Assembly (NCBI RefSeq): GCF_000155955.1
Contig: NZ_GG697142.2
Coordinates: 355,689-419,688 of the forward strand
Origin: Mitsuokella multacida DSM 20544
GTDB taxonomy: Bacteria; Bacillota; Negativicutes; Selenomonadales; Selenomonadaceae
DNA length: 64,000 nucleotides
Direction of reading: 5' to 3'
Every line of letters begins with the position of its first letter. Within the stretch, counting starts at the first letter, position 1. The notes below the pieces were generated by a model that saw only the letters and a list, made by a program, of their open reading frames with translations, ran no database searches and was not told where the DNA came from. Position numbers and translations under genes: made by a program. Positions 11,636-61,746 of this stretch are shown here, one piece after another.

Positions 11636-11867
11636 CCGTATACGAAAAGGCGTAGAGCGGGAGAAGTAAGGCGGCGCGCTTCATGCAGAGAGGCCCCCAG
11701 ATGCTGTGAGGGGGCTATGGAGACCCGACTGAAATGCACCTGGGAGCTGCAGGGCAGAAGACAGTAGGCCCTGACGCAGGAAGGCGTTATCTTCATGAGT
11801 GAAGGGCAGGAGCCCTTAACCAGAGTGGAACCACGGCCCCGCGTCTCTGAGGAGATGCGGGGCCTTT
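11636..11867 (+). promoter_or_regulatory. T-box leader, cysteine-specific
   Basis: The leader contains the T-box sequence AGAGTGGAACCACGG at 11822-11836, which pairs with the uncharged tRNA acceptor end. A terminator follows: GGCCCCGC 11835-11842 with GCGGGGCC 11857-11864, then TTT. In Stem I the segment GAAATGC (11731-11737) places TGC, a Cys codon, at the specifier position. The downstream genes cysE and cysS agree. Uncharged tRNA-Cys should favour antitermination and read-through into cysE-cysS and probably on to rlmB. Confidence 0.88.
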
Positions 11868-16974: not shown

Positions 16975-16999
16975 CCCGCATCATGACAATTCCATAAAG

Positions 17000-17285
17000 A
17001 GGGAACAGGTGACGCCGTAAGGCGCTGAAAAGAGAAGCCGGTCAAAGCCGGCGCGGTCCCGCCGCTGTAAGGGGAGCGAATCTGCATAGATATGTCACTG
17101 GATGAACATCTGGGAAGGCGCAGAGGAGCGATGAACCGAGCCAGAAGAACTGCCTGTCCGAAAATCACCGTTATGACCTGCGAGAGATGGGAAGGCGATT
17201 GATGTACACTGCACCTGTACTCTGTAGAGGTGCAGTCCATCATGGCAGCAAAGCTCTTCCGCGGAAGCGGAAGGGCTTTTTTATT
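17000..17285 (+). promoter_or_regulatory. Cobalamin (B12) riboswitch with terminator
   Basis: The leader carries the conserved B12-box architecture: AAGCCGGTCAAAGCCGG, then CGCGGTCCCGCCGCTGTAA, then GAGCCAGAAGAACTGCC at about 17138-17154. The expression platform includes TGCACCT/AGGTGCA near 17209-17235 and a terminator (AAAGCTCTTCCGC 17250-17262 with GCGGAAGGGCTTT 17267-17279, T-run to 17282). Adenosylcobalamin should repress the downstream cobaltochelatase gene. The gap 16975-17309 is otherwise empty; an ORF starting at 17187 is only the in-frame extension of cbiK. Confidence 0.92.
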
Positions 17286-18406: not shown

Positions 18407-18418
18407 GAGAAAATCGAT

Positions 18419-18520
18419 ACTCCGAGCGAAAGCACTCTAAGGATGTTCTTCTTCGCATCTATGAGGCTGAGCCTGGGTAAAACCCACAGGGAAGTGCTGG
18501 AAATGGCACTGCCTTCCGTT
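18419..18520 (+). promoter_or_regulatory. Moco-type riboswitch candidate
   Basis: The leader of modA contains the blocks expected of the molybdenum cofactor RNA motif: CTCCGAGC at the 5' side, GAGGCTGAGCC, CCTGGGTAAAACCCACAGGG, and the hairpin AAGTGCTGGAAATGGCACT leading into GCCTTCC. No long terminator follows, and AAAAGGAG for modA lies about 10 bases downstream, so translational control is likely. Its placement before a molybdate uptake operon agrees with known Moco RNA contexts. A covariance-model search would settle it. Confidence 0.72.
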
Positions 18521-18540
18521 TTTGAAAAGGAGCGTATACC

Positions 18541-19335
18541 ATGAAGAAATTATTTGCCCTGCTGGCAGCCGGCCTGCTCGCAGTCATGAGCGGCTGCGGC
18601 GGCCAGACGGCCAGCAACGAATCGAAGTCCTCTGCACAGGAGCCCGTGGAACTCCACGTCTCGGCAGCGGCGAGCCTGACCGATGTCATGAATGAGATCG
18701 GCAAGGACTACGAGGCTGAGCACCCGAACGTCAAGGTCGTGTTCAACTACGGTAGCTCGGGCGCGCTGCAGCAGGCCATCGAGAATGGCGGCGATGCGGA
18801 CCTGTTCTTCTCTGCTGCCCAGAAGCAGATGAATGCCCTCGAGAAGGCGGGCCTGCTCGCCGATGGCACGCGCAAGGACCTGCTGCAGAATGAGGTCGTG
18901 CTGATCGTCCCGAAAGAGGGCGGCAAGGACATCAGTTCCTTTGACCAGCTGACGAGCGACACCATCACGCACGTCGCACTCGGTGAGCCGAAGGGCGTGC
19001 CGGTCGGCCAGTACTCGGAGGAGATCCTGACGAAGCTCGGCATCCTCGACGCCGTCAAGGCAAAGGCTGTCTATGGCTCGGATGTGCGCCAGGTCCTCGC
19101 CTGGGTCGCATCGGGTGAAGCCGATGCTGGTCTCGTCTATGCGACGGATGCTGCCATCTCGTCGGACGTCCGCGTCGTCGCGAAAGCACCGGCTGGCACA
19201 CACAAGGATATCATCTATCCGGCTGCCATCCTGAAAGATTCGAAACATCTCGACACGGCAAAGGATTTCCTTGCCTTCGTCTCGAATGATAAGAACAAGG
19301 AACGCTTTGCGAAGTATGGCTTTGAGGTAAAATAA
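18541..19335 (+). CDS. modA: Molybdate ABC transporter substrate-binding protein
   Basis: The 264-residue periplasmic-type binding protein starts with a lipoprotein-like signal peptide ending MSGCGG (Cys near 19). LHVSAAASLTDVMNEIGK is the characteristic oxyanion-binding start of ModA, with FNYGSSGALQQAIENG next and GSDVRQVLAWVASGEADAGL near 180. It captures molybdate or tungstate and delivers it to ModB. AAAAGGAGCG precedes the ATG. Its stop codon overlaps the modB start by one base. Confidence 0.93.
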   Translation: MKKLFALLAAGLLAVMSGCGGQTASNESKSSAQEPVELHVSAAASLTDVMNEIGKDYEAEHPNVKVVFNYGSSGALQQAIENGGDADLFFSAAQKQMNALEKAGLLADGTRKDLLQNEVVLIVPKEGGKDISSFDQLTSDTITHVALGEPKGVPVGQYSEEILTKLGILDAVKAKAVYGSDVRQVLAWVASGEADAGLVYATDAAISSDVRVVAKAPAGTHKDIIYPAAILKDSKHLDTAKDFLAFVSNDKNKERFAKYGFEVK

Positions 19336-44864: not shown

Positions 44865-46922
44865 TCAGCCGAGCGTCTTGCCTGAGAGCGCCGTCTCCAT
44901 GAAGGTCTTCTGGGCGCCAATCGGCGTCATGCCCTTGCGGCACGAGGCGCGGACGTACGAGCCGTCGGAGCGCATGAGGTATGCCTTCGTGTTGTCCTTG
45001 AGGTACGTCTGCAGGATGGCGTGCAGGCGGTCCTTGTGGTCCTGCTCGCGGATCGGGATCATGAGCTCGACGCGGTTGTTGAGGTTGCGCGGCATCCAGT
45101 CGGCCGACGAGATGAAGACGTCTTCGCGGCCGCCGTTGTAGCAGTAGAGGATGCGGCTGTGCTCGAGGAAGCGGCCGACGATGCTGCGGACGTGGATGTT
45201 CTCGCTGATCTCCGGCAGGCCCGGGCGCAGGACGCAGATGCCGCGGACAATCAGGTCAATCTTGACGCCGGCTGCCGATGCCTCGTAGAGCTTGGCGATG
45301 ATCAGGCGGTCGAGCAGGGAGTTCATCTTGGCGGCGATGTAGGCGCGCTCGCCGCGCTTTGCGTGCTCGATTTCCTGATCGATCTCGGCCATGATCGTCT
45401 CGCGCAGGTTGAGCGGTGCGACGATGAGCTTGTTCCAAGCCGGCGGATCGGAGAAGCCGGAGAGGAAGTTGAAGAAGCGGGAGCCGTCGACGCCGATCTC
45501 GTTGTCGGCGGTCATCAGGCCGATATCGGTGTAGATCTTGGCCGTCGAGCCATTGTAGTTGCCCGTGGCGAGATGGCAGTAGCGGCGGATGCCGTCTTCC
45601 TCGCGGCGCACGACCATCGTGATCTTGGAGTGGGTCTTGAGGCCGAGGATGCCGTAGATGACGTGGCAGCCGGCTTCCTCGAGGCGGCGGGCCATGATGA
45701 TGTTGTTCTCCTCATCGAAGCGCGCCTTGACCTCCATGAGCACCGTGACCTGCTTGCCGTTGCGCGCGGCGTCGGCGAGGGCGGAGATGATCGGCGACTT
45801 GCTCGAGACGCGGTAGAGCGTCTGCTTGATGGCCAGCACGGCCTCGTCGTCGGCTGCCGTGCGGATGAAGTTCTCGACCGTCGCGAACGTCTCGTACGGA
45901 TGGTGGACGAGGATGTCCTTCTCGCGGATGGCCTTCCAGATGTCCTTCGTCTTGCGTGCGGCGAGTTCGATCGACGGCTGCGGCACGAAGGGCTCGTAGC
46001 GCAGTTCATCGTAGCCCTTGATGTTGGCGAACGAAGAGAAGAAGGCGGCGCCGAGCGGACCGTCGATCGTGTAGACGTCGAGGTCGTCGAGCTCGAGCTC
46101 CTTCTGGAGCGTCTTGCGCGTCTCCTTGGAGGCCGCTTTGGCGATCTCGAGGCGGACGGCAGCGCCTTTGCGGCGCTTTTCGAGGGATTTCTCGACCTCG
46201 AGGAGCAGGTCGTCGACGTCCTCGCGGATGTCGAGGTCGGCATCGCGCGTGACGCGGAACGGCGTCGTCTCGAGGATCTCGTAGCCCGTGAAGAAGCGCT
46301 CGGCGAAGTAGCTCAGGATGTCTTCGAGGTAGAGGTAGTGCTGGAGCTCTGGCACCTTGATGAGGCGGCCGAGAACGGAGACCGGCACCGGTAGGATGGC
46401 GAGGCGGACTTCCTTGTCCTCAGGGCGCTTGAGGTGGACGGCGAGGTTGAGGCTCTTGCTCGTCAGGAAGGGGAAGGGGTGCGAGGGATCGATGCCCATC
46501 GGCGTGACGACCGGGAAGATCTCGCGCTCGAAGAACTCGGTCAGCCAAAGCTCCTGCTTGGCGTCGAGGTCCGTCGGCTGGACGAAGCGGATGCCGTGTG
46601 CCGTGAGCTCTTTAAGCGTCGCCTTGAGGCAGCGGTCGATGTCGTGCATCTGGTCGTGCGCGATGCGGCTGACGGCGTCCATCTGTCCCTGCGGCGTCAG
46701 GCCGCTGATGTCGTGGTGCTTGACGCCGCTCTCGATGAGGTGCTTGAGGCCGGCGACGCGGATCATGAAGAACTCGTCGAGGTTGGAGCAGTTGATGGCG
46801 ATGAAGCGCAGGCGCTCGAGCAGGGGATTGTCCTCGCAGGTGGATTCGCGCAACACGCGCTGGTTGAAGCTCAGCCAGGTGCACTCGCGGTTTAGGTAGT
46901 ATTGACGGTCATTGAAGTCCAT
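44865..46922 (-). CDS. ppk1: Polyphosphate kinase Ppk1
   Basis: Ppk1 reversibly polymerises the ATP gamma-phosphate into polyphosphate at the inner membrane. The 685-residue protein has the N-terminal LSFNQRVLRESTCEDNPLLE and two PLD-like catalytic halves. The phosphorylated His region is RRYCHLATGNYNGSTAKIYT near 440-460, and the second His is in GLKTHSKITMV. ATG 46922 is favoured over the in-frame ATG at 46928 because AAGGAGG (46930-46936) then has normal spacing. It begins two bases after the Ppx-like gene. Confidence 0.95.
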   Translation of the reverse strand: MDFNDRQYYLNRECTWLSFNQRVLRESTCEDNPLLERLRFIAINCSNLDEFFMIRVAGLKHLIESGVKHHDISGLTPQGQMDAVSRIAHDQMHDIDRCLKATLKELTAHGIRFVQPTDLDAKQELWLTEFFEREIFPVVTPMGIDPSHPFPFLTSKSLNLAVHLKRPEDKEVRLAILPVPVSVLGRLIKVPELQHYLYLEDILSYFAERFFTGYEILETTPFRVTRDADLDIREDVDDLLLEVEKSLEKRRKGAAVRLEIAKAASKETRKTLQKELELDDLDVYTIDGPLGAAFFSSFANIKGYDELRYEPFVPQPSIELAARKTKDIWKAIREKDILVHHPYETFATVENFIRTAADDEAVLAIKQTLYRVSSKSPIISALADAARNGKQVTVLMEVKARFDEENNIIMARRLEEAGCHVIYGILGLKTHSKITMVVRREEDGIRRYCHLATGNYNGSTAKIYTDIGLMTADNEIGVDGSRFFNFLSGFSDPPAWNKLIVAPLNLRETIMAEIDQEIEHAKRGERAYIAAKMNSLLDRLIIAKLYEASAAGVKIDLIVRGICVLRPGLPEISENIHVRSIVGRFLEHSRILYCYNGGREDVFISSADWMPRNLNNRVELMIPIREQDHKDRLHAILQTYLKDNTKAYLMRSDGSYVRASCRKGMTPIGAQKTFMETALSGKTLG

Positions 46923-46924
46923 GT

Positions 46925-48460
46925 TCATTTCCTCCTTAAGACGGGCTCGATGCCGAAGATCTCGCGGAACAGCACTGAGGCTTGTGCGAAACTCCAGCGG
47001 ATCAGCGAGATATCGTATTCTGACGTGTAGTTGACGTAGAGTTTTTCCTTGACGAGGCGCACGGAAAGGTCCTGGATGCGGCCGCTGTGGCCCTGGTCAA
47101 GGGCGTCGGCAAGGCGCAGGATCGCGCAGCACTTGTCGGCGATGATCTTCTGGTCCTGCGTCAGGCGCTGGTAATGCACGTCCTTCTTGCCGGGGTTGTC
47201 GCGGTGGTAGTAGTAGCTGATGCAGGCGATGACTTCCTTCTCGGCGTCCGTGATGCCGAAGATGTCCGTGCCCATGATGATCTGCCAGGAGTGCAGCGGG
47301 TAGTTGCGCAGGTTGACGAACTTGCCCGTCTCATGCAGCAGTGCGCTCATGCGCAGCAGCAGGCGGTGGCGCGTCGAGAGGCCGTGCACGCGGCGCAGCC
47401 CGTCGAAGAGCTTCGTCGCGTACTCGTCGATGCGGCTGATGTGCGGCAGGTTGCAGTTGTAGCGCATGGCCGTGCTGCGCGCGAGGTCGAGCAGCAGGTC
47501 GGCCTGCTCGGAGATGGCGCTCGGGCTGATGCGCTGTGCGCCGCACCAGGCGGCGTAGCCGTAGAGGAAGGTCGTGTTCATGACGAGGATCGTGTCGATG
47601 TTGAGTGTGCGCACGACTTCCTCGTAGAGCAGCAGCGTCGGCAGCAAGAGCTGAGCCCGGCGCTCGCTGATGTCGAAGACCTGCATGAGCTTGTGCGCCG
47701 TCAGCGGCATCAGCGATTCCATGATCTGCAGGAATTCCTCCGGTGCGATGACAGCGGGGTACTCTGCCGCGCTGCCCAGCAGGTGCGAGACGAGGATGCG
47801 CGCCTCGAAGCCCGTGAGCACGAGTGTGTGGATGTCCGCATGCTCGATGCGGGGCCAGAGCGAGGAGAGCGAGGCGTGCAGGTAATCGCGCACGGCCGAC
47901 GGGAACATGACACTGACGCGCTCTTCCTCGGTGAAGTGCTCGAGGACGCTGAGGCGCCCCCCAGTGACGTTCGTCTGGAAGAGCAGCGTGCTGTCCTGCC
48001 AGCCCGTGAAGCCGAGGCCGCCCGATGTGACGTCGAGCAGCAGCGTCGGCTTCGTGCCGACCTGCTCATTCTTTTTGAGGAAGTGGTGCAGCGCGAAGAA
48101 CTTGTAGTAGACTTCCTCCGTCATGTCGGCGACGTGGAAGCGGAAGCCCGTGCGCATGTAGAGGAGGTCGAGGATGCCGAGGCGGTTCTCCGCCTCGCGC
48201 ACGACGGTCGTGGCAATCGGGTAGACCTCGGAGACGCGGTAGTCTAAGAGGAGCTGCCGGAAGCCCTGCAGGATGGTGCTGAGCGCATGGATGGACGCGA
48301 AGGAGAGGCGGTGCGTGCGGAAAACCTCCTCGCCGAGCGGCAGCTCTTTATTGGCGGAATCGATGACCTCGATCTGTGTCGGAGAATGATATTTCACAAT
48401 GGCCATGCTCGTGTGGATGGAGCCAATGTGGATGATGCCGAATGTCGATGTTTTCTTCAT
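46925..48460 (-). CDS. Degenerate Ppx/GppA-like protein with HD-type domain
   Basis: The 511-residue protein has the two-part layout of long exopolyphosphatases: an N-terminal ASKHA-fold domain and a C-terminal HD-type helical domain from about 315. Key motifs are altered. The usual DIGSNSxR is FGIIHIGSIHTSM near 6-18, the DxGGGS loop reads LLDVTSGGLGFTG near 150, and HD appears as LLHETGKF near 383. TTVVREAENR, with the catalytic-region Glu, is preserved near 96. It may bind polyphosphate or (p)ppGpp without hydrolysing it. ATG 48460 follows AAAGGATG. It is co-transcribed with ppk. Confidence 0.8.
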   Translation of the reverse strand: MKKTSTFGIIHIGSIHTSMAIVKYHSPTQIEVIDSANKELPLGEEVFRTHRLSFASIHALSTILQGFRQLLLDYRVSEVYPIATTVVREAENRLGILDLLYMRTGFRFHVADMTEEVYYKFFALHHFLKKNEQVGTKPTLLLDVTSGGLGFTGWQDSTLLFQTNVTGGRLSVLEHFTEEERVSVMFPSAVRDYLHASLSSLWPRIEHADIHTLVLTGFEARILVSHLLGSAAEYPAVIAPEEFLQIMESLMPLTAHKLMQVFDISERRAQLLLPTLLLYEEVVRTLNIDTILVMNTTFLYGYAAWCGAQRISPSAISEQADLLLDLARSTAMRYNCNLPHISRIDEYATKLFDGLRRVHGLSTRHRLLLRMSALLHETGKFVNLRNYPLHSWQIIMGTDIFGITDAEKEVIACISYYYHRDNPGKKDVHYQRLTQDQKIIADKCCAILRLADALDQGHSGRIQDLSVRLVKEKLYVNYTSEYDISLIRWSFAQASVLFREIFGIEPVLRRK

Positions 48461-48577
48461 GCCATAACATCCTTTCTGGAATGGGAGAGGCTCTGGGCAG
48501 ATGAGCCTGTTTCTTATTATAGGGAGCAAGCAGCAGGACTGCGTTGCTATTTCGTAAATTTTTTGTTAATACCCTAT

Positions 48578-48583
48578 ATTATA
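48578..48583 (-). promoter_or_regulatory. -10 element of the Ppx-like/ppk unit
   Basis: The minus strand carries TATAAT with a moderate -35 (TTCAAA at 18 bases). It lies back-to-back with the promoter of the canonical ppx gene. Confidence 0.5.
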
Positions 48584-48611
48584 CAGCATCTAACGGAAAT
48601 TTTGAATTGTC

Positions 48612-48640
48612 TTGAAGCATCGCGCCTGAATTGATATACT
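48612..48640 (+). promoter_or_regulatory. Promoter of the canonical ppx gene
   Basis: TTGAAG (48612-48617) and TATACT (48635-48640) have a 17-base spacer. Confidence 0.65.
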
Positions 48641-48705
48641 GGAAGAAAGTGCAGGAATCGCGAAAGAATGATAGACTGCAATACAGAGTAAGGGAGCGTT
48701 CGTTT

Positions 48706-50256
48706 ATGGAGAGAGTGGCAATCATTGATATGGGGTCGAATTCGATCCGCTTCATCGTCATACAGGTGGCCGACAATAAGTCCTACCGTCTCGAGTACCA
48801 GCAGAAGGAGGCCATCCGTCTCGGCCGCGGCATGTCGGAGACGGGCAGGCTCAATCCGGAGGGTGTGGAGCGCGCCATGGCCTGCCTCCATGTCTACAAG
48901 CACATGATGGAGGTCCTGCAGGTCACGAAGTGCATCGCGGTCGCGACGGCGGCGGCGCGCAATGCTGCGGATGGCGAGGCATTCATCGCGCGCATCAAGC
49001 AGGAGACGGGCATCGACATCGAGGTCATCTCGGGCGAGCGCGAGGCGTACCTCGGCTACCTCGGCGTCGTCAACACCATCGACGAGCGCAACTACCTGCA
49101 GTTCGACCTCGGCGGCGCTTCAATCGAGGTCTCGCTCGTGCGTGACCGCAAGATTGTCGAGTCGGTCTCCGTGCCGATCGGCGCCGTGACGGTGACGGAT
49201 GCCTTCAACCTCGCCGACAAGGTGACGGGCGCGGCCGTCGAGCGCTGCTGTGACTTCGTGCGCAAGAAGTACGAGGAGATGATCCCGTGGGCCGAGGGGC
49301 TCAATCTGCCCGTCATCGGCGTCGGCGGCACGGTCCGAAACCTCGCCAAGATGGACCAGGCCCAGACGAACTACCAGCTTTCACGCATCCACAACTACAT
49401 CATCCCGCGCCGCCGCTTCGAGGAGATGTACACGAGCATCGTCAAGTCGAACCTCTCGAGCCGCAAGCGCATGAAGGGGCTCTCGTCGGAGCGCGCCGAC
49501 CTCATCGTGGCGGGCGGCATCATCATCAACACACTCATGCAGTTCACGGGCGGCCAGAACATCATCGTCTCGGGCTGCGGCCTGCGCGACGGCGTCTTCT
49601 TCGAGTACTACGGCGAACAGTACGGCTACGGCGAGAAGGCCGAGAAGGGACCCATCGTGCCGAACGTGCTGCGGGAGAGCGTGCACAACTACCTCTTGAG
49701 CGCCGACCACCGCATGGAGCACCTCGAGCGCGTGCGCAACCTCGCGCTGAGCCTCTTTGACCAGCTCAAGCGCTCACATGGCGCGACGCGGCGCGACCGC
49801 AGCCTCCTGGAGGTCGCGGCCTGGCTGCACGACTCGGGCAAGGTCGTCAACTACTACGATCATGCGCGCCATTCGGCCTTCATCATCGCGCATGCGCCGC
49901 TCTACGGCATGCGCCAGCTCGAGCAGCTCAAGGCTGCGTTTATCGCGGGCTTCCACCACGGCATCAGCAACAAGATCATGCGCGCCTACCGCTATGCGAT
50001 GATGCTGACGCAGGCCGACTGGAAGAAGGTCCGCCAGCTCGCGCTGCTCCTGGCCCTCGCTGAGGCGGCCGATGTGACGTACGAGGGCGTCGTGCACAAG
50101 ATCGACGTCGCCGACGACGAGGAGGCCGTCGTGCTCTCGCTGCGCGGCAAGAAGGGCGAGGACCACAGCGCAGCTGAGTTCGAGATGAAGTCGTACTGCA
50201 AGCAGTTCAAGAAGGAGTACGGCAAGCCGCTGATCATCATGTGGCAGAAGAACTGA
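48706..50256 (+). CDS. ppx: Exopolyphosphatase, Ppx/GppA family
   Basis: The enzyme removes terminal phosphates from polyphosphate (or the pppGpp 5'-phosphate). The 516-residue protein has the canonical IIDMGSNSIRFIVIQV near 5-20, the TAAARNAADG catalytic region near 83, QFDLGGASIEVSLV near 133, and IGVGGTVRNL near 205. The C-terminal HD domain starts near 310 with WLHDSGKVVNYYDHARHSAF near 370-390. It is divergent from the ppk unit. AAGGGAG precedes the ATG at 48706. Confidence 0.92.
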   Translation: MERVAIIDMGSNSIRFIVIQVADNKSYRLEYQQKEAIRLGRGMSETGRLNPEGVERAMACLHVYKHMMEVLQVTKCIAVATAAARNAADGEAFIARIKQETGIDIEVISGEREAYLGYLGVVNTIDERNYLQFDLGGASIEVSLVRDRKIVESVSVPIGAVTVTDAFNLADKVTGAAVERCCDFVRKKYEEMIPWAEGLNLPVIGVGGTVRNLAKMDQAQTNYQLSRIHNYIIPRRRFEEMYTSIVKSNLSSRKRMKGLSSERADLIVAGGIIINTLMQFTGGQNIIVSGCGLRDGVFFEYYGEQYGYGEKAEKGPIVPNVLRESVHNYLLSADHRMEHLERVRNLALSLFDQLKRSHGATRRDRSLLEVAAWLHDSGKVVNYYDHARHSAFIIAHAPLYGMRQLEQLKAAFIAGFHHGISNKIMRAYRYAMMLTQADWKKVRQLALLLALAEAADVTYEGVVHKIDVADDEEAVVLSLRGKKGEDHSAAEFEMKSYCKQFKKEYGKPLIIMWQKN

Positions 50257-50298: not shown

Positions 50299-50302
50299 CG
50301 TA

Positions 50303-50526
50303 GGTAGCAATGAGGAAGAAGAGTAATCTCATCCTGCAGCGAGGCGGCGATGGTGCGAGGCCGCCCATGATCATGAATGTGAACATGAAATGAGATGAAA
50401 GGCGCTTCGGAGCATAATCCCATAATTTGAGCGGGCTTTCCTTTCGGAAGTCAATCAGGGTGGAACCGCGGTACTTGAAGACAAGTCTCGTCCCTGTAAC
50501 GTTACGTTGCAGGAACGAGATTTTTA
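50303..50526 (+). promoter_or_regulatory. T-box leader, glycine-specific
   Basis: The T-box AGGGTGGAACCGCGG lies at 50457-50471. A terminator follows (TCTCGTCCCTG 50486-50496 with CAGGAACGAGA 50510-50520, then TTTTT). In Stem I, AGTA on the 5' side faces GAAAGGC (50397-50403) on the 3' side, flanked by ATCTCAT/ATGAGAT pairing. This places GGC, a Gly codon, in the specifier position. glyQS directly follows. Confidence 0.9.
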
Positions 50527-61499: not shown

Positions 61500-61746
61500 C
61501 ATATGTAAACACGTAAATCCGAGGATGCAGAGCATTAGGTGTGGAACGTCTCAAGAGAGCCGGCGGCAGCTGAGAGCCGGTGACGAGAAGCGCTGAACTC
61601 ACTGCGGAGGAGCGGCCGGGGCGCCTTCGGGCAAAACGGTCGACGCCTGCCACGTTACGGCACCGAGAGGATGCGCATGCATCAAGCAGGGTGGTACCGC
61701 GAATCATCGTCCCTGACCGTCAGCAATGACGGTCGGGGACTTTTTT
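61500..61746 (+). promoter_or_regulatory. T-box leader, leucine-specific
   Basis: The T-box AGGGTGGTACCGCG lies at 61688-61701. A strong terminator follows (GTCCCTGACCGTCA 61709-61722 with TGACGGTCGGGGAC 61727-61740, then TTTTTT). In Stem I, GAACTC (61595-61600) presents CTC, a Leu codon, at the specifier position. leuS starts 20 bases after the T-run. Confidence 0.92.

Follow-up and report, generated by a model that had tools for sequence, protein, structure and literature searches.

Why would a bacterium encode an exopolyphosphatase-like protein with a degenerate active site directly upstream of its polyphosphate kinase, when an intact exopolyphosphatase gene lies immediately opposite? The question is raised by a 64,000-nucleotide stretch of the Mitsuokella multacida DSM 20544 genome, referred to here as the window, in which the degenerate Ppx-like protein upstream of ppk1 is given our own label, PpxD. 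The locus comprises the following features:

46925-48460, minus strand: ppxD, encoding a catalytic-site-degenerate protein of 511 aa with a predicted four-domain Ppx/GppA fold, assigned below as an orthologue of Lactobacillaceae Ppx1.
44865-46922, minus strand: ppk1, encoding polyphosphate kinase 1 with intact active-site residues.
46920-46936, minus strand: junction of the ppxD stop with the ppk1 Shine-Dalgarno sequence and start (AGGAGGAAATGAACATG), read directly from the sequence.
48461-48705, no strand assigned: intergenic region between the divergent genes, with putative back-to-back sigma-70-like promoters recognized by consensus matching alone.
48706-50256, plus strand: ppx, encoding a canonical exopolyphosphatase of 516 aa, divergent from ppxD-ppk1.

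An earlier sequence-only reading of this DNA had given the same gene order, coordinates, two-base spacing and divergent canonical Ppx, all of which were borne out. The ppxD frame runs from an ATG at 48460 to a TGA at 46925 on the minus strand, and the likely ppk1 start is the ATG at 46922, leaving two bases between the genes. An AGGAGG sequence lies within the 3' end of ppxD, 8 nt from this ATG, and an alternative ppk1 ATG at 46928 would overlap the ppxD stop codon; this architecture suggests translational coupling. The putative promoters lie at 48606-48578 (minus) and 48612-48640 (plus), and the scanned region holds five sigma-70-like consensus matches compared with 1.3 expected. The window Ppk1 contains the equivalents of E. 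coli R375, R405, H435, H454, R564, H592 and R621. Three proteins of the genome match PF02541, namely PpxD, the adjacent Ppx and a 306-residue protein on another contig, and Mitsuokella jalaludinii, the nearest named genome, carries a PpxD copy that is 92% identical. Upstream of glyQ, at 50301-50498 on the plus strand, there is also a T-box-like leader whose 61.7 bits fall short of the Rfam gathering score of 93, although E is 3e-13, and elsewhere in the window (11644-11851, 61513-61717, 16990-17171 and 18408-18548) there are two T-box leaders, a cobalamin riboswitch and a Moco riboswitch.

To describe the PpxD active site we took residue roles and numbering from the D. radiodurans PPX (PMC11234463) and mapped them on a 104-protein alignment. 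The proposed loss of both phosphate-binding loops is confirmed, and the losses are of one kind in all 16 Negativicutes PpxDs. Instead of a DxGSNS loop with its Mg2+ aspartate, residues 11-16 of the window PpxD read HIGSIH, and residues 143-150, where DxGGGSxE would be expected, read DVTSGGLG (GGGSxE to TSGGLG). The Mg2+ aspartate D7 is replaced by histidine in 16/16 sequences (H11 in the window), Asn and Ser of loop 1 (N11, S12) are gone, and in loop 2 G139 has become Ser, S141 Gly and E143 Gly or Ala, each in 16/16. Among the remaining positions, H14 is replaced by Ser, Thr, Gly or Cys, R302 is absent from all 16 sequences, the REG Arg is lost in the window protein, and R271 is variable, with Arg in four sequences including that of the window. 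The degeneration is nevertheless partial, as T82, R86, E114 and D136 are retained in 15-16 of the 16 sequences, and the window PpxD keeps R88, E116 (at the catalytic base position) and D143. It therefore retains the Arg/Glu pair of canonical exopolyphosphatases (D. radiodurans R86/E114) and shows only in part the loss of catalytic residues attributed to Cluster II proteins. In the adjacent Ppx every catalytic position is present (D8, R85, E113, D134, E141, R294), with an Ala at G140 as in 8/41 canonical Ppx. One clue offered by the sequence-only reading did not survive: the HE motif of PpxD domain III cannot mark degeneration, since E. coli Ppx also reads HE, as do 4/27 canonical full-length Ppx, and the Negativicutes PpxDs are split between HD (8/15) and HE (7/15).

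That the overall Ppx fold is kept, as also proposed earlier, is supported by both profile and structural evidence. Pfam matches to Ppx-GppA (PF02541, 53.5 bits) and Ppx-GppA domain III (PF21447, 61 bits) exceed their cut-offs, and an AlphaFold2 model computed from an alignment of 15 Negativicutes sequences (input 46925-48463, with one extra N-terminal Gly) reached a pLDDT of 89 and a pTM of 0.86. The nearest structures, matching over both halves, are H. pylori PPX/GppA, E. coli PPX and D. radiodurans PPX, so that the model confirms a predicted four-domain Ppx/GppA fold. Full-chain rmsd to some Ppx/GppA structures is large, which probably reflects a differing arrangement of the two halves of the model, a variation described for this family (PMC11234463). 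PpxD thus shares its fold, domain order and catalytic Arg/Glu pair with the canonical enzymes but lacks their Mg2+ Asp, both phosphate loops and the REG Arg. Fusion of PpxD to other domains was ruled out: the long frames L070, L090 and L091 hold only Ppx/GppA domains and weak HD-type Pfam matches, and their extra length is therefore probably open upstream sequence.

A plasmid search pointed to relatives of PpxD in Lactobacillus, where "exopolyphosphatase" genes are arranged as ppx1-ppk-(others)-ppx2. Trees of 104 and 46 proteins contain a 100/100 branch that separates PpxD, Lactobacillus Ppx1 (from L. intestinalis and L. amylolyticus, standing in for the Lc. paracasei sequence) and clostridial and verrucomicrobial homologues from canonical Ppx, Lactobacillus Ppx2 and E. 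coli Ppx; the Bacillota PpxDs form one group with support of 100/99. Pairwise scores agree with this division, with Lactobacillus Ppx1 giving 144 bits to PpxD over its length and 55 bits to the window Ppx, compared with 37 and 98 bits, respectively, for E. coli Ppx. By phylogeny and gene order, then, PpxD is a member of the Cluster II Ppx1 proteins and orthologous to Lactobacillaceae Ppx1, with which it shares a four-domain architecture, the loss of the phosphate loops and a position directly upstream of ppk1. The two are far from identical, however: identity is only about 24%, and R88, E116 and D143, kept in Mitsuokella-type and other Negativicutes PpxDs, are lost in Lactobacillus Ppx1. The active Ppx of the window is a four-domain protein encoded divergently from the operon, whereas that of Lactobacillaceae is a two-domain Ppx2 encoded downstream of ppk1. 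In the original Lc. paracasei study purified Ppx1 was reportedly devoid of phosphatase activity and raised Ppk activity. A review states that deletion of ppx1 abolishes polyphosphate accumulation in Lc. paracasei BL23 and that complementation restores it (Corrales et al. 2024, via PMC12248826), that Cluster II Ppx1 proteins, including those of Clostridia and Negativicutes, have changed catalytic residues, and that they may activate Ppk1 by an unspecified mechanism (PMC12248826).

Lactobacillus-type genes also occur close to home. Six genomes of the window's own family (G023, G004, G015, G005, G033 and G012; loci L023, L024 and L026-L029) carry a Lactobacillus-type ppx1-ppk1 pair whose Ppx1 is far more degenerate, reading IYMSTAKL and having none of the R/E/D catalytic residues. 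The ppk1 tree recovers largely the same groups as the PpxD/Ppx tree, and these six genomes fall with Lactobacillus in both, which suggests that ppx1 and ppk1 moved as a unit. In the polyphosphate operon of a Lactobacillus intestinalis plasmid, ppk and ppx2 are separated by two DUF2252 genes (L098:9721-12522).

The association of PpxD with Ppk1 was then followed across genomes; a contig search with PpxD alone had returned two relatives only. PpxD is found in 24 of 60 relatives (own genome counted), with ppk1 directly downstream in 23, and in the 24th the contig ends where ppk1 would be expected, so that the pair is conserved in 23/23 testable genomes with PpxD. Apart from the contig-end genome, PpxD is absent from every sampled genome without a ppk1 match, and the association of the two genes among the 60 relatives gives a Fisher p of 3e-5, relatedness ignored. 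The same pair occurs in three other Bacillota genomes (L039-L041) and in Lactobacillus. The PpxD profile matches 69/145 Verrucomicrobiota genomes (some of the weaker matches not being classed one by one), and 68 of the 69 also have ppk1, an association with an odds ratio of 49 and a p of 7e-10 if relatedness is ignored. In 58 of 70 Verrucomicrobiota places the matching gene immediately precedes a ppk1 of the same strand. Thus, we conclude that the pairing is not due to chance, and the homologues in other Bacillota and in Verrucomicrobiota rule out a family confined to Negativicutes.

PpxD was found in none of 13 genomes carrying a second, more distant ppk1 clade of the class; members of this clade (G007, G025, G026, G028, G042) often lie near a two-domain Ppx. 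In G041 (L032) and G059 (L030) a ppk1 nested within the PpxD-associated clade adjoins only a canonical Ppx; PpxD was probably lost in these genomes, and Ppk1 can evidently do without it at least there, because a ppk1 of the PpxD-associated clade is present and PpxD is not. Nor was any excess coevolution of PpxD with Ppk1 seen, their distance correlation of 0.954 being hardly higher than the 0.930 for Ppk1-Ppx.

The favored explanation of these observations, which we regard as likely, is that PpxD is a Ppx1-type pseudo-exopolyphosphatase in an operon with Ppk1, most likely assisting polyphosphate synthesis. Having lost the Mg2+ ligand and both phosphate loops, PpxD is most likely unable to hydrolyse polyphosphate in the way that Ppx does, despite its four-domain fold. 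Co-transcribed with ppk1, as the gene arrangement predicts, it would most likely bind or otherwise assist Ppk1 as an activator or accessory subunit, presumably through direct contact, so that polyphosphate is made, and the divergent intact Ppx would be the hydrolase. The requirement for polyphosphate accumulation is drawn from literature on a relative, and in M. multacida the function would follow by analogy. The helper idea has already been published for Cluster II proteins (PMC12248826), the likely direction being support of synthesis. The sequence-only reading had proposed a sensor or regulator of Ppk1 that binds polyphosphate or alarmone; a non-catalytic Ppx paralogue working with Ppk1 is indeed the best-supported reading, and the closest studied relatives are so described (PMC12248826, citing Corrales et al. 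2024), but the ligand-binding part of the proposal finds no support. Polyphosphate or alarmone sensing is not favored because the basic polyphosphate ligands H14, R302 and, in most sequences, R271 are lost, and the phenotype described for the relative is a need for Ppx1 in synthesis rather than ligand sensing (PMC12248826).

Could PpxD instead still act as a phosphatase, but on another substrate or with a different use of metal, R88, E116 and D143 being catalytic and H11 standing in for the Mg2+ Asp? Retention of the corresponding residues in nearly all Negativicutes PpxDs would fit such activity, and the invariance of the histidine at the Mg site there resembles maintenance more than decay. 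We consider this reading unlikely, however, as loss or variation affects loop 2, the Asn/Ser of loop 1, the REG Arg and the polyphosphate ligands H14 and R271, the Lactobacillus relatives have lost the R86/E114/D136 set too, and a canonical Ppx adjoins PpxD. A quite unlikely alternative makes the HD-like domain III the working part, which would bind (or hydrolyse) a metal, nucleotide or alarmone and signal to Ppk1. Domain III is indeed the best conserved part across the PpxD clade as a whole (mean pairwise identity of 0.38 versus 0.26 for domains I/II; 0.48 versus 0.35 in Verrucomicrobiota), unlike canonical Ppx, where the two regions are about equally conserved, and most PpxDs conserve H340, H376, D452/D455, R449 and H458, three of which (R449, D452 and H458) are for the most part not conserved among canonical Ppx. 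Within Negativicutes, though, the two regions show equal conservation (0.42 and 0.44), the HD dyad of the H...HD...D metal site of HD phosphohydrolases is HE in the window PpxD, the dyad His is missing in the Lactobacillus type, and the Pfam HD score (PF01966) is below cut-off (14.8 versus 22 bits). A role for ppxD solely in the expression of ppk1, as a leader or partner gene that acts by translational coupling with no protein-level role, would agree with the two-base spacing and the ribosome-binding site inside ppxD; it is highly improbable given that conservation of the protein sequence spans two phyla and that polyphosphate is restored in Lc. paracasei when ppx1 is provided in trans (PMC12248826), which is incompatible with a cis-only role.

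The Verrucomicrobiota homologues bear on when catalysis was lost. The Mg2+ Asp is kept in 30/31 of their sequences and E143 in about half, and the glycine loop is largely preserved, but N11 and R271 are missing in 31/31 and Glu replaces D136 in 22. Since these proteins, mostly with the Mg2+ Asp, are also encoded upstream of ppk1, the partnership with Ppk1 is probably older than the loss of catalysis, on trees that do not infer the root. One Akkermansiaceae PpxD-like gene (L005:5986-7497) does not adjoin ppk1 and shows an Asp-to-His change of its own at the Mg2+ position. A broader proposal, which we advance tentatively and with slightly less than even confidence, is that PpxD/Ppx1 serves generally as an accessory subunit in one large Ppk1 lineage and is found in at least two phyla, Bacillota and Verrucomicrobiota; it would have originated as an operonic exopolyphosphatase and kept its Ppk1 partnership while catalysis was lost stepwise in Bacillota and selection shifted to the HD-like domain III. 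The reach of the clade and operon into Verrucomicrobiota and the graded active-site loss seem to be new; titles and abstracts contained nothing specific on pseudo-Ppx or Verrucomicrobiota ppx-ppk operons, within an incomplete coverage of the literature that leaves room for a prior description.

With more of the active site kept, the Verrucomicrobiota homologues are natural intermediates for timing the switch from hydrolase to helper. Polyphosphate synthesis may depend on a pseudo-exopolyphosphatase in many anaerobic bacteria of the gut and the environment, and database annotation of such genes as exopolyphosphatase misleads inferences about phosphorus cycling.
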